Shown here piece after piece: positions 36,280 through 46,308 of a stretch of 64,000 bases of DNA; the first letter of the stretch is position 1, and every line of letters begins with the position of its first letter. A program made the position numbers and the translations under genes. This DNA is from Methanosarcina acetivorans C2A (GTDB lineage: Archaea; Halobacteriota; Methanosarcinia; Methanosarcinales; Methanosarcinaceae): the NCBI RefSeq assembly GCF_000007345.1, contig NC_003552.1:3906001-3970000 (forward strand), read 5' to 3'. The notes beneath the pieces are model-generated. The model saw only the letters and a list, made by a program, of their open reading frames with translations, was not told where the DNA came from and searched no databases.

Positions 36280-36318
36280 TTGAATAAAAAACATGCAAGT
36301 CCAAAAACGGCGGGAAAA

Positions 36319-37806
36319 ATGAGTATGGAAACGGCAGAAGAAAAAGGGAACACAGAAGAAAAAAAGGCAAAAAAGGAAAAATTAGAAGAAAGCCGGGATG
36401 GAAAGGAAAAAACAGGAAGCATCCCCTCTCAAAAAGTTACAGAGGGAGTGGACGTACTTCTCGGGGACCCCAAAAAAGCTGTTGTCAAGCTCTCGATTCC
36501 GATTATAGTTGCAATGTCCGTACAGACCATCTACAGCCTGACCGATACCTTCTGGGTTGCGGGATTAGGGGCAGATGCCCTGGCTGCCATAGGGTTCTCT
36601 TTTCCTTTTTTCGTTATCCAGATGGCGCTTACAAGCGGGCTTGGTGTGGGTGGAGGGGCTGCAATCTCCCGACGGATAGGGGCCAGGGATAAGGCAGGCG
36701 TGGATAATGTTGCAGTGCATACCTTTGTGCTCATGGTAATCCTCACGGTTGCCCTTACGATTTTCGGACTTGCCTTCGTAAGAGACCTTTTTATGTACAG
36801 CGGGGCCGGAGGGACTACGGACCTCGGAGTTGCTTATGCCAGGGTTATCTTTGCAGGTAGTTTTGTTTTCTTTTTTGCAAACGTTTCAAACTCCATCCTG
36901 AGAAGTGAAGGGGACGCAAAAAGAGCCATGCAGTCCATGATCCTGGGCTCCGTCCTGAACATAGGGCTCGACCCCATTTTCATATACGTCCTTGGTCTGG
37001 GGGTCGCAGGAGCAGCCCTGGCAACGGTAGTCTCTTTTGCATGTTCGGGATTGCTGATGTTTTACTGGTTCTTCGTCAAAAAGGACACCTATGTGTCTTT
37101 TGATTTTCATTCATTCAAGTTTAACCTGGCAATTGCCAATGACATCTTCAGGGTCGGAATACCCTCTTCAGTCGAACAGGTTGCCCTGGCAATGACCGCT
37201 CTGCTCATGAACCTCATCATTGTCAATGTCAGCAACACCGACGGAGTTGCAGTCTATGCCACAGGTTGGAGGGTTGCAAGCATTGCGGTCGCTCCCTTAA
37301 TAGGAGTTTCAATTTCCGTAGTTTCGATTAGTGGCGCCGCCTTCGGAGAAAAGAACTTTAAAAAAGCCCGGCATGCCCTCATTTACGCAACGGAAATCGG
37401 CTTTCTTGCCGAAGCCCTGATAGGCATAGCCGTATACGTATTTGCCCCTCAGATTTCAGCCGTTTTCACTCAGGCTGAAACTGCCGCCCGTATTGCTCCG
37501 GAACTGACCAGACTCCTGAAAATTATGACGGTCTTTTACCCGGCGGTTACCTTCGGAATGCTCTCTGCCTCTCTCTTCCAGGGAGCAGGAAAAGGAACAA
37601 GCGCCCTTATTGCCACTCTCCTGAGAAGTCTGGTCCTGACTCCCCTCTTTGCCGTGCTTTTTGCATACGAATTAGGCTGGGGGCTGCTTGGGGTATGGTG
37701 GGGACTGGTTGCAGGTACGGTTATTGGCTCACTGATCACTTTTGCATGGGCTCAGGTCTATCTGGGGTGTATGATAAAGGAAGAGGGGATAGGGGAGAAA
37801 TGTTGA
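36319..37806 (+). CDS. MATE-family multidrug/metabolite efflux transporter, copy 1
   Basis: 495 residues from the ATG at 36319; the frame can be opened at a TTG at 36280 with a weak AGGAT site. After ~45 charged, non-conserved residues the MATE core has 12 helices in two halves (for example LSIPIIVAMSVQTIYSLTDT and FPFFVIQMALTSGLG; then VEQVALAMTALLMNLIIVNV and FYPAVTFGMLSASLF). MATE proteins export drugs or metabolites in exchange for H+ or Na+. It is a close paralogue of the one at 44,872. It ends 97 bp from the end of the terpene-cyclase-like gene, so it converges with the peptide-modification operon. Confidence 0.93.
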   Translation: MSMETAEEKGNTEEKKAKKEKLEESRDGKEKTGSIPSQKVTEGVDVLLGDPKKAVVKLSIPIIVAMSVQTIYSLTDTFWVAGLGADALAAIGFSFPFFVIQMALTSGLGVGGGAAISRRIGARDKAGVDNVAVHTFVLMVILTVALTIFGLAFVRDLFMYSGAGGTTDLGVAYARVIFAGSFVFFFANVSNSILRSEGDAKRAMQSMILGSVLNIGLDPIFIYVLGLGVAGAALATVVSFACSGLLMFYWFFVKKDTYVSFDFHSFKFNLAIANDIFRVGIPSSVEQVALAMTALLMNLIIVNVSNTDGVAVYATGWRVASIAVAPLIGVSISVVSISGAAFGEKNFKKARHALIYATEIGFLAEALIGIAVYVFAPQISAVFTQAETAARIAPELTRLLKIMTVFYPAVTFGMLSASLFQGAGKGTSALIATLLRSLVLTPLFAVLFAYELGWGLLGVWWGLVAGTVIGSLITFAWAQVYLGCMIKEEGIGEKC

Positions 37807-37903: not shown

Positions 37904-39109
37904 TCATTCGTGAGAAGCAGATCCGGAATAATAGCCTGATAAGTTAAGAAAATCGTATAGTGCACCCATTACTGTTGCTGTTGTAAATAAGAGATTAACA
38001 TCGGTTACGACTTCACACTTTTCGCGATTCGAACCAACCCACGGTTCACGAACCTGCGGATCGGGAACTCTAAGTATCGGTTTTGAAAACCAACTGCCAT
38101 CTTCGTTCTGGTTCTCAATTAGCCATAAGACCGAGTCTTTGACTTCTCTTGAATGGATGTTGTTCTCGAATAAAAGGAGCGAAGATAAGGAAAGGGCTGT
38201 GTAAAAAGGATAAGGGACAGCTTCGTAACCGTTTCCCCACCCTTTTGACGGAACAAATATGCTCTTTAACCAGGAGATAGCCTTCTTGACCGGATCAATT
38301 TCTCCTAGTTGCTTTAAAAAATTACAGGCTAAACTCGTTCCGTAGATCCTGCAGTCCCACCAGTAAGAGTCCCAGTATCCGGCAGAATTCTGCCTGCTTA
38401 TCAGAAATTCCCTGGCCTTCGAGATTTCCTGCTCAAACCATTCCGGACCTGCGGTCAAAAAAGCATTTCCTGCCATTGCTGTTATTGAAGGCTCGGAAAT
38501 ACACCAGGCACTGTCTGGCATTGTATGATATTTCCCGTTTGAACCTGGCAAATAAGTTAAAAAACCGCCTGTGTTTCTATCCTGGTAAGAGGCGAGCAGG
38601 TCAGCAAATTCATGCAGATAAAAAACAAAATTTTCCTGAGTAAGAAGATTTTCTTTTTTGAAGTAATATGCCAGAAGACGTACCACGTTAGCTGTAGAAT
38701 CCGCATCAGGAAGGCAGTTCTGGTGGTATCCCCAGCCTCCGGAAGAAAATTTTGTGTGAAGCAGCCAGACTATTGCTTTTTGAACAGATTTATCCGTATT
38801 CGGGAGCCTGGAAAGGCTGTATGCGATGTAAGCAGTTACCCACTGAGAACTTTTTCCCATTCCCGGGATGTAAAAATCCAGCCAGTAACCTTCGTCGGAC
38901 TGATTTGAAATGATAAAATTACTTGCCTTCCCTATCGCCAGTTCAACAGCATTTAACATCCGGTTGTTAAAGATCTGGTTGTCTGAAATTTTGTCGTTTA
39001 ATATCCGGTTATCTGAGATCTTGTCGTTTAAGATATTTTTATCTGAAATCCTGTCGTTTAATATCCGGTTACTCAAAATCCGGCTATTTAATACCTGTTC
39101 ATTTGTCAA
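37904..39109 (-). CDS. Class II terpene-cyclase-like / prenyltransferase alpha-alpha toroid protein
   Basis: The frame opens at a TTG at 39142 (412 residues), but the TTG at 39109 follows AGAGGG by 9 nt and overlaps the preceding stop by 11 bp, so it is preferred (401 residues). The body is an alpha-alpha barrel with QW-type repeats: ISNQSDEGYWLDFY, SRQNSAGYWDSYWW, IENQNEDGSWFSK and weaker copies. The motif PDADSTANVV (near residue 146 of the long form) aligns with the DxDDTA of squalene-hopene and copalyl cyclases: the catalytic middle Asp is kept and the following Asp is Ser. At ~350 residues for the toroid it is half a squalene cyclase. The first 50 residues are a decapeptide repeat (ILNDKISDNR). 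Last gene of the peptide operon. Confidence 0.75.
   Translation of the reverse strand: MTNEQVLNSRILSNRILNDRISDKNILNDKISDNRILNDKISDNQIFNNRMLNAVELAIGKASNFIISNQSDEGYWLDFYIPGMGKSSQWVTAYIAYSLSRLPNTDKSVQKAIVWLLHTKFSSGGWGYHQNCLPDADSTANVVRLLAYYFKKENLLTQENFVFYLHEFADLLASYQDRNTGGFLTYLPGSNGKYHTMPDSAWCISEPSITAMAGNAFLTAGPEWFEQEISKAREFLISRQNSAGYWDSYWWDCRIYGTSLACNFLKQLGEIDPVKKAISWLKSIFVPSKGWGNGYEAVPYPFYTALSLSSLLLFENNIHSREVKDSVLWLIENQNEDGSWFSKPILRVPDPQVREPWVGSNREKCEVVTDVNLLFTTATVMGALYDFLNLSGYYSGSASHE
38957..39090 (-). repeat. 30-bp minisatellite inside the cyclase-like gene
   Basis: Three near-perfect 30-bp copies plus partial flanks, in frame, encoding decapeptides of the form (N)RILNDKISD. Being a multiple of three, gain or loss of a copy would keep the reading frame. 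Confidence 0.85.
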
Positions 39110-39944
39110 GATTGAAAACCCTCTTATCCAGATATGTAACAAGATCTAACGGCGGGTAACGACTATCCCAGGATTCCTCATTGCAGCGGAGATAAAGCGT
39201 TACTTCCAGGCCTGTTTTTTCAGTATAACCGATGCCTAACCAGTGCAAATATGCATTTTTATTTTTTTCAAACCAGATAAAAAAGTCTTGCGAACAGGGA
39301 TTCAGGTCAGAAACCAGATAAAAAATAGATTTTTCCAGGGCTTTCAGGCAAATTTTGGAACCCGTGGAGATATGGTATCCAAGAACCAGGCCCGAGGCAT
39401 TTCTGGTACTGATCTGATTCCAGTCATCCGGAGGGATAAGTTTCATTATTTCATCAAATATACGGGGCGATGGAATCAGTTTTTTTAAATCCTCAATCAC
39501 CTGGGCATAATTGTCAGGAGTGACAAGGGAATAGGTTTTCAGGACCCAGTTACCATTTGAATCAAATTCATAGCCATATCCTTCGTTTGCTTCGTGGAAG
39601 TAAACTCTTTTAGCGTTCATATCGAAATTTATGCCCGCAATTATCCGAACATTTTCATTGTGCCTGTTTTTTATCAGATCATATAGCTCTTCGGGGGCAG
39701 CCATCAAATCGAGTAACTTTTCTTTTTTTTGCCATATTTCAGTGCCATTTATTCCAAAAATCGGAATGGAGTATCTGTTATAACTTATTGAACCGGAACT
39801 TATCTTAACGGAACTTTCAACCATAGGAGAATAGGAAACTCCCCAGCAAGCATACATTTCTTCAATCGAAGAATAAAAGTCCAGAACTTTTCCAACGGTA
39901 CTTCCATTTGACCCGCTTTTGATTAGATTGATATGCTCATTCAT
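39099..39944 (-). CDS. Unknown protein with beta-hairpin repeats, possible ABBA-type prenyltransferase
   Basis: 281 residues, no membrane segments. Three similar beta-rich stretches are spaced ~65 residues apart: IAGINFDMNAKRVYFHEA, LVLGYHISTGSKICLKAL, and LGIGYTEKTGLEVTLYLR. Each has the form of two strands with a turn and a basic residue leading to an aromatic, the rhythm of ABBA prenyltransferases (CloQ/NphB, DMATS and cyanobactin types). That resemblance is pattern-level only, so the call is tentative. Its stop overlaps the preferred start of the terpene-cyclase-like gene, implying translational coupling. If it does prenylate, the Trp at the end of the adjacent peptide would be a natural target. 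Confidence 0.5.
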   Translation of the reverse strand: MNEHINLIKSGSNGSTVGKVLDFYSSIEEMYACWGVSYSPMVESSVKISSGSISYNRYSIPIFGINGTEIWQKKEKLLDLMAAPEELYDLIKNRHNENVRIIAGINFDMNAKRVYFHEANEGYGYEFDSNGNWVLKTYSLVTPDNYAQVIEDLKKLIPSPRIFDEIMKLIPPDDWNQISTRNASGLVLGYHISTGSKICLKALEKSIFYLVSDLNPCSQDFFIWFEKNKNAYLHWLGIGYTEKTGLEVTLYLRCNEESWDSRYPPLDLVTYLDKRVFNLDK

Positions 39945-40023
39945 AGAACCACAATTTAACTGTTGTCAAAATTAAACTGTTATCAAAAATTAGCAAATTG
40001 TTTAAAATTAGGGAGATGCTTTA

Positions 40024-41487
40024 TCAAATTTCTCTAACAGGCAGTTTCGTCTGAACGGGACATTCCGGTTGTGCATCATAAATTGTGCCATATGAAGAAA
40101 GTACATCTCTGTAACAGTACCCTTTAATTCGATGGCAAGCTTCGAATTCTAAACAGTCATAGCATACGGAATTTTTGAATTTTTCACGGGGAGGGTATAT
40201 AAAATCAGTGATTTTCTTGGAGTTCCATACCCCCATGATTCCTTCATCAAACACATTGCCCACAATGAACTCTTCCCTGTGAGGAATCTGTTCGCATAAA
40301 GTAACATCTCCATTTGGCTGGATAATCATATTCGAACGGCCCCCGGAGCATACCGCCCGATCTTTCCATTTCTCAGGAGAAAGGTTTCGGTTTCCTCCGG
40401 TGGTCAAATTTTGTTCAACGCTTATATTAAGAAGAGGGTAATTTTGATTTACGTACTCTGCAAAGTTAGAGATGAACTCTTTATGCTTAGAGGATAAAAA
40501 TAAATCATTATTATGTCGGTATTTACTTCTACTGTATTGAACAAACTGAAAATCCCTGACTCCAAGGTTCGCAAACTCGTCAACAATAGCAGACATTTCA
40601 AGATAATTAAAAGGGGTGAGAACGCATTTTATTTTGGGACATATCCCTACTTTCATTAAATTCTTAACCGATTGAATTGTTTTTTCGTAATGGTCTTTCT
40701 TTTTGACCATATAACCTGCAGTTGGTGCATCAACACTATCTATACTTAGCTGGACATATCGGAACAGGTGTTCGGGTTCATCCCCGATACCAATATGCAT
40801 TGATGCCAGGCACTTAGCCGTATTTTCATCAATAAAGGATTTTGTCGAAAGCAAAAAAACAAAATCTCTGTCTACCATTGCCTGCAATATCTCAAGTGCG
40901 TCCGGGCGTGCAAAAATGTCGGTTCCGCCGATATCTACAAGGAAAATTTCATTTTCCTGAAGTTCATCAAAAATTCTGCTCCACTGACTGAGCTCTTTTT
41001 CCTCGCACTTTTTCCTCTCTGCATAACAGTATATACAGTCATAATGGCAACGGTTTGTAAACGATATGCTCACAGACAGAGGTCGGGATAATCTCACTAT
41101 GGGGAATTGATACCCTTCAATATCAGGAATCAATTTTTCAAGATTGCTGAGCGAAGGACTTTTTTCACCCTCAAGCACCAGAATATTTAAATTGAGAATT
41201 GCTGCAATTGTTTGATCAACGATCTCGGACAACTTTTTACTGTTGTTTTCCTGGCATTCCGGATGAACTGTTTCATAAAGACCGGAAAAGATTTCCAGAG
41301 CATGTTTTTTGATATCCGATAGATTGCTGGTGCCATCAAAGAAAGGAAGAATCAGGGCTATATTAAGAGGCAAAACAAAGTATTTGTTTTTCTCAACAGT
41401 GCTTTCATAAGCGACAACATATTCTCCATCGTTTCTTAAGATACTGTTTCCTGCTAAATAGGGGAAGTCCTGTTCACAAAATTGCAT
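40024..41487 (-). CDS. Radical SAM/SPASM enzyme with N-terminal peptide-recognition-like extension
   Basis: 487 residues. Residues ~10-110 resemble the PqqD-like (RRE) peptide-binding extension seen in RiPP maturases. The radical SAM core has C147-x3-C151-x2-C154 (NRCHYDCIYCYAERK). The C-terminal SPASM region is Cys-rich: AVCSGGRSN, VTLCEQIPH, SVCYDCLEFEACHRIKGYC and PECPVQ, enough for two auxiliary [4Fe-4S] clusters. Such enzymes cross-link or otherwise modify ribosomal peptides using S-adenosylmethionine radicals. Only 63 bp separate it from the short peptide gene upstream, strongly suggesting that the peptide is its substrate. The RRE call is moderate; the radical SAM/SPASM call is strong. 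Confidence 0.9.
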   Translation of the reverse strand: MQFCEQDFPYLAGNSILRNDGEYVVAYESTVEKNKYFVLPLNIALILPFFDGTSNLSDIKKHALEIFSGLYETVHPECQENNSKKLSEIVDQTIAAILNLNILVLEGEKSPSLSNLEKLIPDIEGYQFPIVRLSRPLSVSISFTNRCHYDCIYCYAERKKCEEKELSQWSRIFDELQENEIFLVDIGGTDIFARPDALEILQAMVDRDFVFLLSTKSFIDENTAKCLASMHIGIGDEPEHLFRYVQLSIDSVDAPTAGYMVKKKDHYEKTIQSVKNLMKVGICPKIKCVLTPFNYLEMSAIVDEFANLGVRDFQFVQYSRSKYRHNNDLFLSSKHKEFISNFAEYVNQNYPLLNISVEQNLTTGGNRNLSPEKWKDRAVCSGGRSNMIIQPNGDVTLCEQIPHREEFIVGNVFDEGIMGVWNSKKITDFIYPPREKFKNSVCYDCLEFEACHRIKGYCYRDVLSSYGTIYDAQPECPVQTKLPVREI

Positions 41488-41550
41488 ATGAGATCAACAA
41501 CCAAAAAAAGTAAAGAGTGCATCCGAGAGTGATGCACTACAAAATTCAGC

Positions 41551-41730
41551 TTACCAGCGCATACCATTCGAACACTGGTCGCAACCTACTTTTTCCTGGG
41601 CCGCAAGCAGCGAACTTTCAAGATCTTGTTCTGAAACATTAATATTCTTCTTTTGCAGTTCATCCTTTACCAGTTTTACGAACTCAGGCACCTTACTTTG
41701 CGCATTTTCAGATAATGTGGGTTTCTCCAT
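41551..41730 (-). CDS. Short peptide, likely precursor of a modified peptide product
   Basis: 59 residues. The ATG at 41730 has an ideal GGAGGT site 8 nt upstream; the longer open frame to 41808 is not used. Residues 1-48 are helical and charged (VPEFVKLVKDELQKKNINVS), like a leader peptide. The last ten contain C50-x-x-C53 and end in GMRW, a compact core-like tail with the only two Cys and the only Trp. No signal peptide or GG site is seen, although VGC precedes the core. First gene of a four-gene minus-strand operon with a radical SAM/SPASM enzyme and terpenoid-like enzymes. The actual modification is unknown. Confidence 0.72.
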   Translation of the reverse strand: MEKPTLSENAQSKVPEFVKLVKDELQKKNINVSEQDLESSLLAAQEKVGCDQCSNGMRW

Positions 41731-44871: not shown

Positions 44872-46308
44872 ATGAAACCCAGTACTGCCGTAAATTCAAA
44901 TCCCTTCGATTCTGAAAAAGGGCCGGGGACAAGTGGAGTTGAAATCCTTTCGGGAGACCCGAAAAAAGCAATTATCAAACTCTCAGTCCCGATGATTGTC
45001 GCAATGTCTGTCCAGACTATTTACCAGCTTGTAGACACCTACTGGGTTTCAGGGCTTGGGGCAGATGCCCTAGCTGCGATGGGCTTTGTATTTCCTTTCT
45101 TTTTCATAAGCATGGCTCTTTCCAACGGGCTTGGAATAGGAGGAGGGGCTGCAATTTCCAGGCGGATAGGCGCCCGGGACAAAACAGGAGCAGACAACGT
45201 AGCCGTACATACGATTGTAATGATGTTGCTGCTCGTGCTGATATTTACCATACCCTTCTATGCTTTTGCCCCCCAGATCTTCTCTCTGGTAGGAGCGGGA
45301 AGAACAACAAACCTTGCAGTAGCTTACGCGAGGGTGATATTCCTCGGAAGCTTCGTAGTTTTCTTTACGAACGTAGCTAACGCCATCCTCAGGGCCGAAG
45401 GGGATTCAAAGCGGGCAATGCAGGCAATGGTCCTCGGCGCAGCCCTGAATATTGTCCTTGACCCTATATTCATATACACCTTTAACATGGGAATTGCAGG
45501 CGCAGCCTGGGCAACCCTTCTTTCGTTATTCATATCTTCACTGATGATGCTGAACTGGCTCTTTTTCAGGAAGAATACTTTCGTTTCCTTCGAATTTAAA
45601 GGCTTTAGTTTTGAAAGAGATATTGTGAATGACATCTTCAAAGTAACAATCCCTGCCTCGACCCAGCAGCTTTCCATGTCATTGTCCATGCTTATCCTCA
45701 ACCTTATTATCGTGAATGTGAGCAATACCGACGGAGTTGCAGTCTACTCCACTGGCTGGCGGGTTGCTACAATTGCAATTGCTCCTCTCGTAGGTATCGC
45801 AACAGCTGTCGTTTCTGTTTCCGGAGCTGCCTTCGGAGCGAGGGAATTTGAAAAAGCCGAAACAGCCCACACCTATGCAATAAAACTGGGGCTCCTTATC
45901 GAAAGCGGAGTTGCCATATTTACTTTCATTTTTGCCCCGCAGATTGCAGCCATTTTCACGCAGACAGAAGAAGCCGCCCATATAGCACCTGACCTCGTCC
46001 ACTTCCTGCGCGTGATCTGCATCTTCTACCCTTCAGTCTCCTTAGGGATGCTTTCGACCTCTTTCTTCCAGGGCGCAGGAAAAGGCATGAACGCCCTTAC
46101 TGCAAACCTCCTGAGAACCATAGTATTTATCCCGCTCTTTGCGGCTATTTTCGCTTTCACTCTTGATATGGGCCAGGTAGGGGCCTGGTGGGGAATTGTT
46201 GTAGGGAATGGGATGGGAGCCGGAGTGACCTTTGTCTGGGCAAGGCTCTACCTCAGCACAATCCTAAAAACAGGACCCCTGAACAAGCCCATAGAACAGG
46301 GAATTTGA
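44872..46308 (+). CDS. MATE-family multidrug/metabolite efflux transporter, copy 2
   Basis: 478 residues, closely similar to the protein at 36,319 in every helix (LSVPMIVAMSVQTIYQLVDT versus LSIPIIVAMSVQTIYSLTDT; both have SRRIGARDK and FFQGAGKG or LFQGAGKG). The N-terminal extension is shorter here (~30 residues). Twelve membrane helices, cytoplasmic membrane, exchanging Na+ or H+ for a drug or metabolite. It follows the MarR regulator and the TrmB remnant, so it is probably MarR-controlled. The two copies bracket the peptide operon. Confidence 0.94.
   Translation: MKPSTAVNSNPFDSEKGPGTSGVEILSGDPKKAIIKLSVPMIVAMSVQTIYQLVDTYWVSGLGADALAAMGFVFPFFFISMALSNGLGIGGGAAISRRIGARDKTGADNVAVHTIVMMLLLVLIFTIPFYAFAPQIFSLVGAGRTTNLAVAYARVIFLGSFVVFFTNVANAILRAEGDSKRAMQAMVLGAALNIVLDPIFIYTFNMGIAGAAWATLLSLFISSLMMLNWLFFRKNTFVSFEFKGFSFERDIVNDIFKVTIPASTQQLSMSLSMLILNLIIVNVSNTDGVAVYSTGWRVATIAIAPLVGIATAVVSVSGAAFGAREFEKAETAHTYAIKLGLLIESGVAIFTFIFAPQIAAIFTQTEEAAHIAPDLVHFLRVICIFYPSVSLGMLSTSFFQGAGKGMNALTANLLRTIVFIPLFAAIFAFTLDMGQVGAWWGIVVGNGMGAGVTFVWARLYLSTILKTGPLNKPIEQGI

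Follow-up and report, generated by a model that had tools for sequence, protein, structure and literature searches.

RiPPs with a cyclised prenyl chain on tryptophan were reported in 2024. According to the passages of PMC13290415 that deal with them, which cite Hubrich et al. 2024, two fusion proteins prenylate the Trp of a peptide and cyclise the attached chain. In NctPC, an ABBA-type prenyltransferase that transfers a geranylgeranyl group is joined to an MstE-like cyclase; in ChrPC, the prenyltransferase domain fused to the cyclase is trans-IDS-like. The cyclase domain of NctPC was likened to MstE in the same passages. The chemistry proposed below is therefore already known in bacteria, and an earlier sequence-only reading of the present locus, which had taken the addition of a terpene cyclase for an undescribed class, was outdated in this respect (PMC13290415).

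The operon analysed here lies in the genome of Methanosarcina acetivorans C2A, a single contig of 5,751,492 bases, within a window of 64,000 nucleotides (the whole stretch of DNA that was analysed, in whose numbering all positions are given). Four ORFs on the minus strand, running from 41730 to 37904, encoded in this order a precursor peptide, a radical SAM/SPASM enzyme, a 281-aa protein and a class II terpene cyclase. The four frames and the gaps of 63 bp (precursor to radical SAM gene) and 79 bp (radical SAM to 281-aa gene) agreed with the sequence-only reading. Rfam and tRNA scans of the 64-kb window were empty, and the literature search found no paper on the M. acetivorans operon. That this is a RiPP operon is nearly certain; that it directs the biosynthesis of a RiPP with a cyclised terpene, by the steps proposed below, has in our estimate a probability of roughly 60%.

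Precursor peptide and radical SAM/SPASM maturase

The precursor gene (41551-41730, minus strand) encoded 59 residues with a helical-looking leader and the C-terminal core VGCDQCSNGMRW (core codons 41554-41586). It was preceded by a strong Shine-Dalgarno sequence, TTGGAGGTATAGT-ATG, which confirmed the ideal ribosome binding site described earlier, and no obvious Shine-Dalgarno sequence was found at the radical SAM and 281-aa genes. The locus is more than a chance arrangement: radical SAM-adjacent precursors matched the peptide in five other genomes (phmmer E 9e-7 to 1.7e-5), and the radical SAM protein, as described below, has orthologues in the same gene order. A missing peptide gene next to homologues of the other genes had been named as a point that would refute the pathway; instead, a short precursor gene adjoined the radical SAM gene, just upstream, in all ten relatives examined (G019, G050, G054, G829, G837, G853, G021, G015, and a Rhizobium and a Mesorhizobium plasmid), and GCxxC was kept in nine of them. 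The precursors of G050 and its near relatives G054, G829, G837 and G853, whose operons are referred to below as the five sister operons, carried VGCEGCANGWHW or a close variant at the C-terminus and ended ...VGC[DE]xCANGWHW; in the precursor alignment, both GCxxC and the C-terminal Trp were conserved. Those of G021 and G015 ended in VGCGFCEVCITACTDCVAYS, without a C-terminal Trp, and the two rhizobial precursors ended in GCDSCTVCPCMICW, with one. The sole exception to GCxxC was the G019 precursor, ...SCHDICITEGSKW, whose leader was frameshifted.

Between the precursor and radical SAM genes, a hairpin with an 8-bp stem followed by a T-rich stretch was located at 41516-41538 (minus strand). Its RNA fold had a z score of -2.28, 4 of 200 shuffles being equally good, and a hairpin was present at the same spot in the four sister operons that were folded (z -2.1 to -3.5); no such hairpin was found in G021 (L049; z -0.7). 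It is possibly a partial terminator or an mRNA stabiliser. As only the precursor gene has a strong ribosome binding site, the hairpin would fit an excess of precursor over enzyme.

The maturase (487 aa, 40024-41487, minus strand) contained the radical SAM motif CxxxCxxC and a SPASM domain, both over the cut-off (PF04055, 7.9e-11; PF13186, 5.6e-12), and Cys147, Cys151 and Cys154 were invariant in the alignment. Orthologous radical SAM proteins were found in the same gene order with E about 1e-130, and the orthologues were 29-77% identical (G019, 77%; G050, 43%; G021, 33%; G015, 31%; the Rhizobium and Mesorhizobium plasmids, about 30%). When nine homologous N-termini were compared by hhalign with a PqqD alignment built in this analysis, residues 31-98 (41194-41397, minus strand) matched with 94.7% probability and E 5.6e-8, a score not reached by any of 200 column shuffles; Pfam PqqD itself did not match the maturase. 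The N-terminal peptide-binding-like region noticed earlier thus turned out to be a PqqD-like RRE, and with a precursor conserved beside the maturase, the RiPP layout of a short Cys-containing peptide with a radical SAM/SPASM enzyme was borne out as well. In the tree, radical SAM proteins accompanied in their operons by a prenyltransferase or by the 281-aa protein were separate from those with neither, with modest support (80/77). A scan of viral contigs with the radical SAM protein found nothing.

The maturase was below the cut-off for every NCBIfam equivalog, the nearest being the mycofactocin maturase, with the GeoRSP maturase as another neighbour. Although far below the cut-off, these best neighbours would suit a route in which the peptide is a scaffold only, from which the radical SAM enzyme and unlinked peptidases free a small cofactor-like aromatic, in the manner of PQQ and mycofactocin, to be prenylated and cyclised later; the segment to be modified is short and C-terminal, and MstE itself works on a small prenylated aromatic. 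However, the conserved precursor residues are two Cys and not cofactor-type residues, the prenyltransferases of the sister operons belong to a family acting on peptides, and there is no peptidase gene within the operon. We consider such a scaffold role quite unlikely.

The 281-aa protein and the sister operons

The five sister operons, from two other Methanosarcinales families, consisted, in this order, of genes for a precursor, a radical SAM enzyme, a prenyltransferase and an FAD oxidoreductase. Gene 3 was unmistakably a LynF/TruF-family peptide prenyltransferase (TIGR04445, 2.8e-23; PF19156, 1.1e-20), with matches to the solved SmiF, LimF and PagF, and gene 4, the FAD oxidoreductase, matched Amino_oxidase, with HpnE below the cut-off. 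A PF19156 search of 305 phylum genomes gave no match, but its controls likewise gave none. No prenyltransferase was found in the G021 and G015 operons, nor, by homology, in the rhizobial operons, even though the rhizobial precursors end in Trp. The C-terminal Trp is therefore no proof of prenylation and may serve the radical SAM step, which counts against the main reading.

Other surroundings of the maturase family were also observed. The radical SAM-only operon of G021 and G015 (L049, L050) had type III CRISPR-type genes, RAMP/Cmr-like on visual inspection, on one side and a long CRISPR-like repeat array on the other. On the rhizobial plasmids (L041, L042), the precursor ending in GCDSCTVCPCMICW and a radical SAM enzyme of the same family were followed by a second enzyme of the radical SAM type; these operons apparently represent a RiPP family that has not been described. 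On a Paenibacillus peoriae plasmid (L043:5800-7420), two Cys-rich precursor-like ORFs were located upstream of a frameshift-split radical SAM gene of the same family.

In M. acetivorans, the slot held by the LynF-family prenyltransferase in the sister operons was occupied by the gene of the 281-aa protein (39099-39944, minus strand), a putative ABBA-type peptide prenyltransferase. The prenyltransferase context proposed earlier was strengthened by this position, since a LynF/TruF/PatF-family enzyme held the same slot of orthologous operons whose precursors also end in Trp. The protein itself had no family match by hmmscan, TIGR04445 and PF19156 included, and searches of 60 relatives, 393 phylum genomes, plasmids and the PDB returned a homologue only in G019. 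A weak match in G249 was discarded as a PQQ-repeat protein. With a LynF-family profile built in this analysis, the G019 homologue scored 11.7 bits (E 0.0013), above about 190 decoys, and the M. acetivorans copy 2.4 bits. The profile-profile score of the 281-aa protein against the LynF family was reached by 4 of 300 column shuffles, and the reverse search gave a match weaker than a chance match picked earlier. The aligned stretch GYEFDSNGNWVLKTY, against GFDFyldGktalkvYP, resembled a conserved strand pair of the LynF family. PTase_Orf2 (NphB type), tried as an alternative prenyltransferase family, gave no signal. The same profile method also missed the link between LynF-type and NphB-type enzymes, two accepted ABBA families, so a negative result for the 281-aa protein says little. 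A single-sequence AlphaFold2 model of the protein had a pLDDT of 38.

From gene position, the sister operons and the weak sequence signal, we infer that the 281-aa protein is likely the prenyltransferase of the precursor. Its missing family match, a model without a usable fold and its marginal link to the LynF family weigh against the main reading. The first and the last of these would also favour a RiPP operon in which the protein has some other role, as a protease, a partner resembling a chaperone or a different modifier; the prenyl chain would then be supplied by an enzyme encoded elsewhere, or the substrate of the cyclase would be a separate prenylated aromatic. G019 had the only operon with a 281-aa homologue, and the cyclase was missing there; this too was counted against the main reading, and it implies that the cyclase and 281-aa genes are not tied together. 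Against a different role for the protein, the same slot in five orthologous operons holds a certain peptide prenyltransferase, and a prenyl cyclase encoded together with a peptide depends on a prenylated substrate, for which the operon has no other candidate gene. We regard a non-prenyltransferase role as unlikely and retain the prenyltransferase assignment.

In G019, the opposite strand encoded a half-size toroid-like protein, frameshifted and carrying a PDLDD motif, some 2 kb upstream of the precursor (L004:12552-13486). It had a weak TED-domain match and is possibly a replacement for the missing cyclase.

The terpene cyclase and its genomic setting

The cyclase gene (37904-38959, minus strand) encoded 351 aa from ATG 38959, or 412 aa if translation started at TTG 39142. 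In the 412-aa reading, most of residues 1-61 were the translation of a 30-bp tandem repeat array of 3.5 copies (38966-39071; Tandem Repeats Finder score 128) that separates the 281-aa gene from the cyclase body, homology to solved cyclases began at residue 63-70, and 38959 was the first in-frame ATG. The overlap of the last two genes claimed earlier hangs on the doubtful TTG start and is itself doubtful; with the start at ATG 38959 the genes do not overlap. Repeat-like stretches resembling the array matched the same residues elsewhere in G016, G002, G025 and G015, for which reason it may be a spreading Methanosarcina repeat.

In phmmer searches the cyclase matched 8paj (1.4e-57), 8pak (4e-48) and MstE (3e-24). 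The first two, the closest structures, are from the myxobacteria Archangium gephyra and Cystobacter fuscus, respectively. The predicted model (pLDDT 87.8, pTM 0.90) superimposed with Z 46.3 on 8paj, 44.5 on 8pak and 39.4 on MstE. The acid motif DADST aligned with DADTT of MstE, whose Asp109 was replaced in the structures solved with substrate and with product. MstE cyclises a geranylgeranyl chain carried on an aromatic ring. At the family level, the protein is certainly an MstE-type class II prenyl cyclase. Sequence, predicted fold and acid motif thus upheld the half-size class II terpene-cyclase-like protein of the sequence-only reading.

In a genome scan, Streptomyces (L014) and Chryseolinea (L017) were found to have fusions of prenyltransferase-like domains with related cyclase domains. 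In Streptomyces sp. MUM 203J, the region L014:5300-11068 encoded a B12-binding radical SAM protein, a small protein ending in SGEW and a 504-aa prenyltransferase-like protein, along with the MstE-type prenyltransferase-cyclase fusion. These fusions, beside the small SGEW-ending protein in Streptomyces, were taken as support for the main reading. Beyond the L014 genome, the actinobacterial search with the cyclase gave just partial matches in long squalene-hopene-type reading frames, and a scan of viral contigs with it found nothing.

The operon occupied a variable slot. In three syntenic Methanosarcina genomes, a roughly 139-aa unrelated gene (MTVLIQKDLNEIIMEKTGI...) was found in its place (L097:7056-8165, L098:5801-7735, L099:220-1785). 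These same three genomes kept the cupin/Cache gene downstream, and two of them also the MATE transporter gene. The operon was gained or lost as one block. Such a slot could also hold an acquired island in decay without a working product; the several frameshifts in the G019 copy and the cyclase start blurred by the tandem repeat would agree with decay. However, all four frames are intact in M. acetivorans, with catalytic motifs and ribosome binding site kept, and the frameshifts of G019, a draft assembly, were close to homopolymer runs and may reflect sequencing errors. Decay is very improbable.

Two MATE transporter genes (36280-37806 and 44872-46308), about 66% identical in DNA, flanked the operon, and both were likewise present around the slot in G009 and G012. 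The MATE gene at 36280-37806, the nearer of the two, was convergent with the cyclase gene and could encode an exporter.

Proposed pathway and comparison with known systems

In the pathway we favour, the RRE of the radical SAM/SPASM enzyme would bind the 59-aa precursor through its leader, and the enzyme would alter the C-terminal GCDQC segment, most likely forming a Cys-based thioether or another cross-link. The 281-aa protein would then add an isoprenoid, most likely to the C-terminal Trp. Geranylgeranyl diphosphate is the precursor of archaeal membrane lipids, and the donor is therefore probably C20. Finally, the MstE-like cyclase would protonate the far end of the chain via an Asp of DADST (Asp148 in the 412-aa numbering), followed by ring closure. 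The order of these steps, the removal of the leader and the biological role are presumed. The precursor, the RRE, the LynF/TruF-family gene 3 in five orthologous operons with Trp-ending precursors and the MstE-like cyclase all support this pathway, as do NctPC and ChrPC, which establish the chemistry in bacteria. A broader proposal is about evenly balanced: a Methanosarcinales RiPP family in which the radical SAM enzyme would rearrange GCxxC, interchangeable prenyltransferases would act on the C-terminal Trp, and the chain would be either cyclised (MstE-like) or oxidised (FAD enzyme), one lineage having a new prenyltransferase sequence family.

Since geranylgeranyl diphosphate is at hand in archaea for membrane lipid synthesis, a polycyclic-terpene peptide could serve as a signal anchored in the membrane or as an antimicrobial, comparable to the prenylated pheromone ComX. 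The sister operons form a natural experiment, with the same peptide and radical enzyme and different terpene tailoring, and M. acetivorans is genetically tractable. In the parts of the literature that the search covered, neither an archaeal prenylated RiPP nor a peptide pathway joining radical SAM modification to terpene cyclisation was described.

Compared with MftC, PqqE, AlbA and ScmE, the maturase was alike in its PqqD-like RRE (N-terminal here), CxxxCxxC core and SPASM domain, and in the short precursor gene just upstream. It differed in lying far under all NCBIfam equivalog cut-offs and in a precursor family with GCxxC, with a C-terminal Trp in the prenyltransferase operons. Among the cyanobactin F-family prenyltransferases (LynF/TruF/PatF, PagF, LimF, SmiF), true members were gene 3 of five Methanosarcinales genomes, whereas the 281-aa protein occupies their slot without a significant family match; unlike cyanobactin clusters, the operon had no cyanobactin protease or heterocyclase genes. 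The cyclase shared with MstE, 8paj and 8pak a single-domain toroid and the DAD[ST]T acid motif, and aligned with them over the full length at 26-39% identity and Z 39-46. It is encoded in a peptide operon, whereas the substrate of MstE is a benzoate and not a peptide.

NctPC and ChrPC, as far as the passages of PMC13290415 describe them, share with this locus a Trp-bearing precursor (C-terminal Trp here) and an MstE-like cyclase, next to which a putative prenyltransferase gene is present in M. acetivorans. Here, however, the prenyltransferase candidate and the cyclase are separate genes rather than one fusion, and no homology to known prenyltransferases is recognisable in the 281-aa protein. 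The proposed acceptor Trp is C-terminal, in contrast to the internal Trp of ChrPC. The host is an archaeon, and its operon also includes an RRE-containing radical SAM/SPASM enzyme together with a GCDQC core. Relative to the literature searched, what is new is the archaeal host, the splitting of prenyltransferase candidate and cyclase into two genes, the partnership with a radical SAM enzyme, and the existence of a sister-operon family with exchange of genes 3 and 4.
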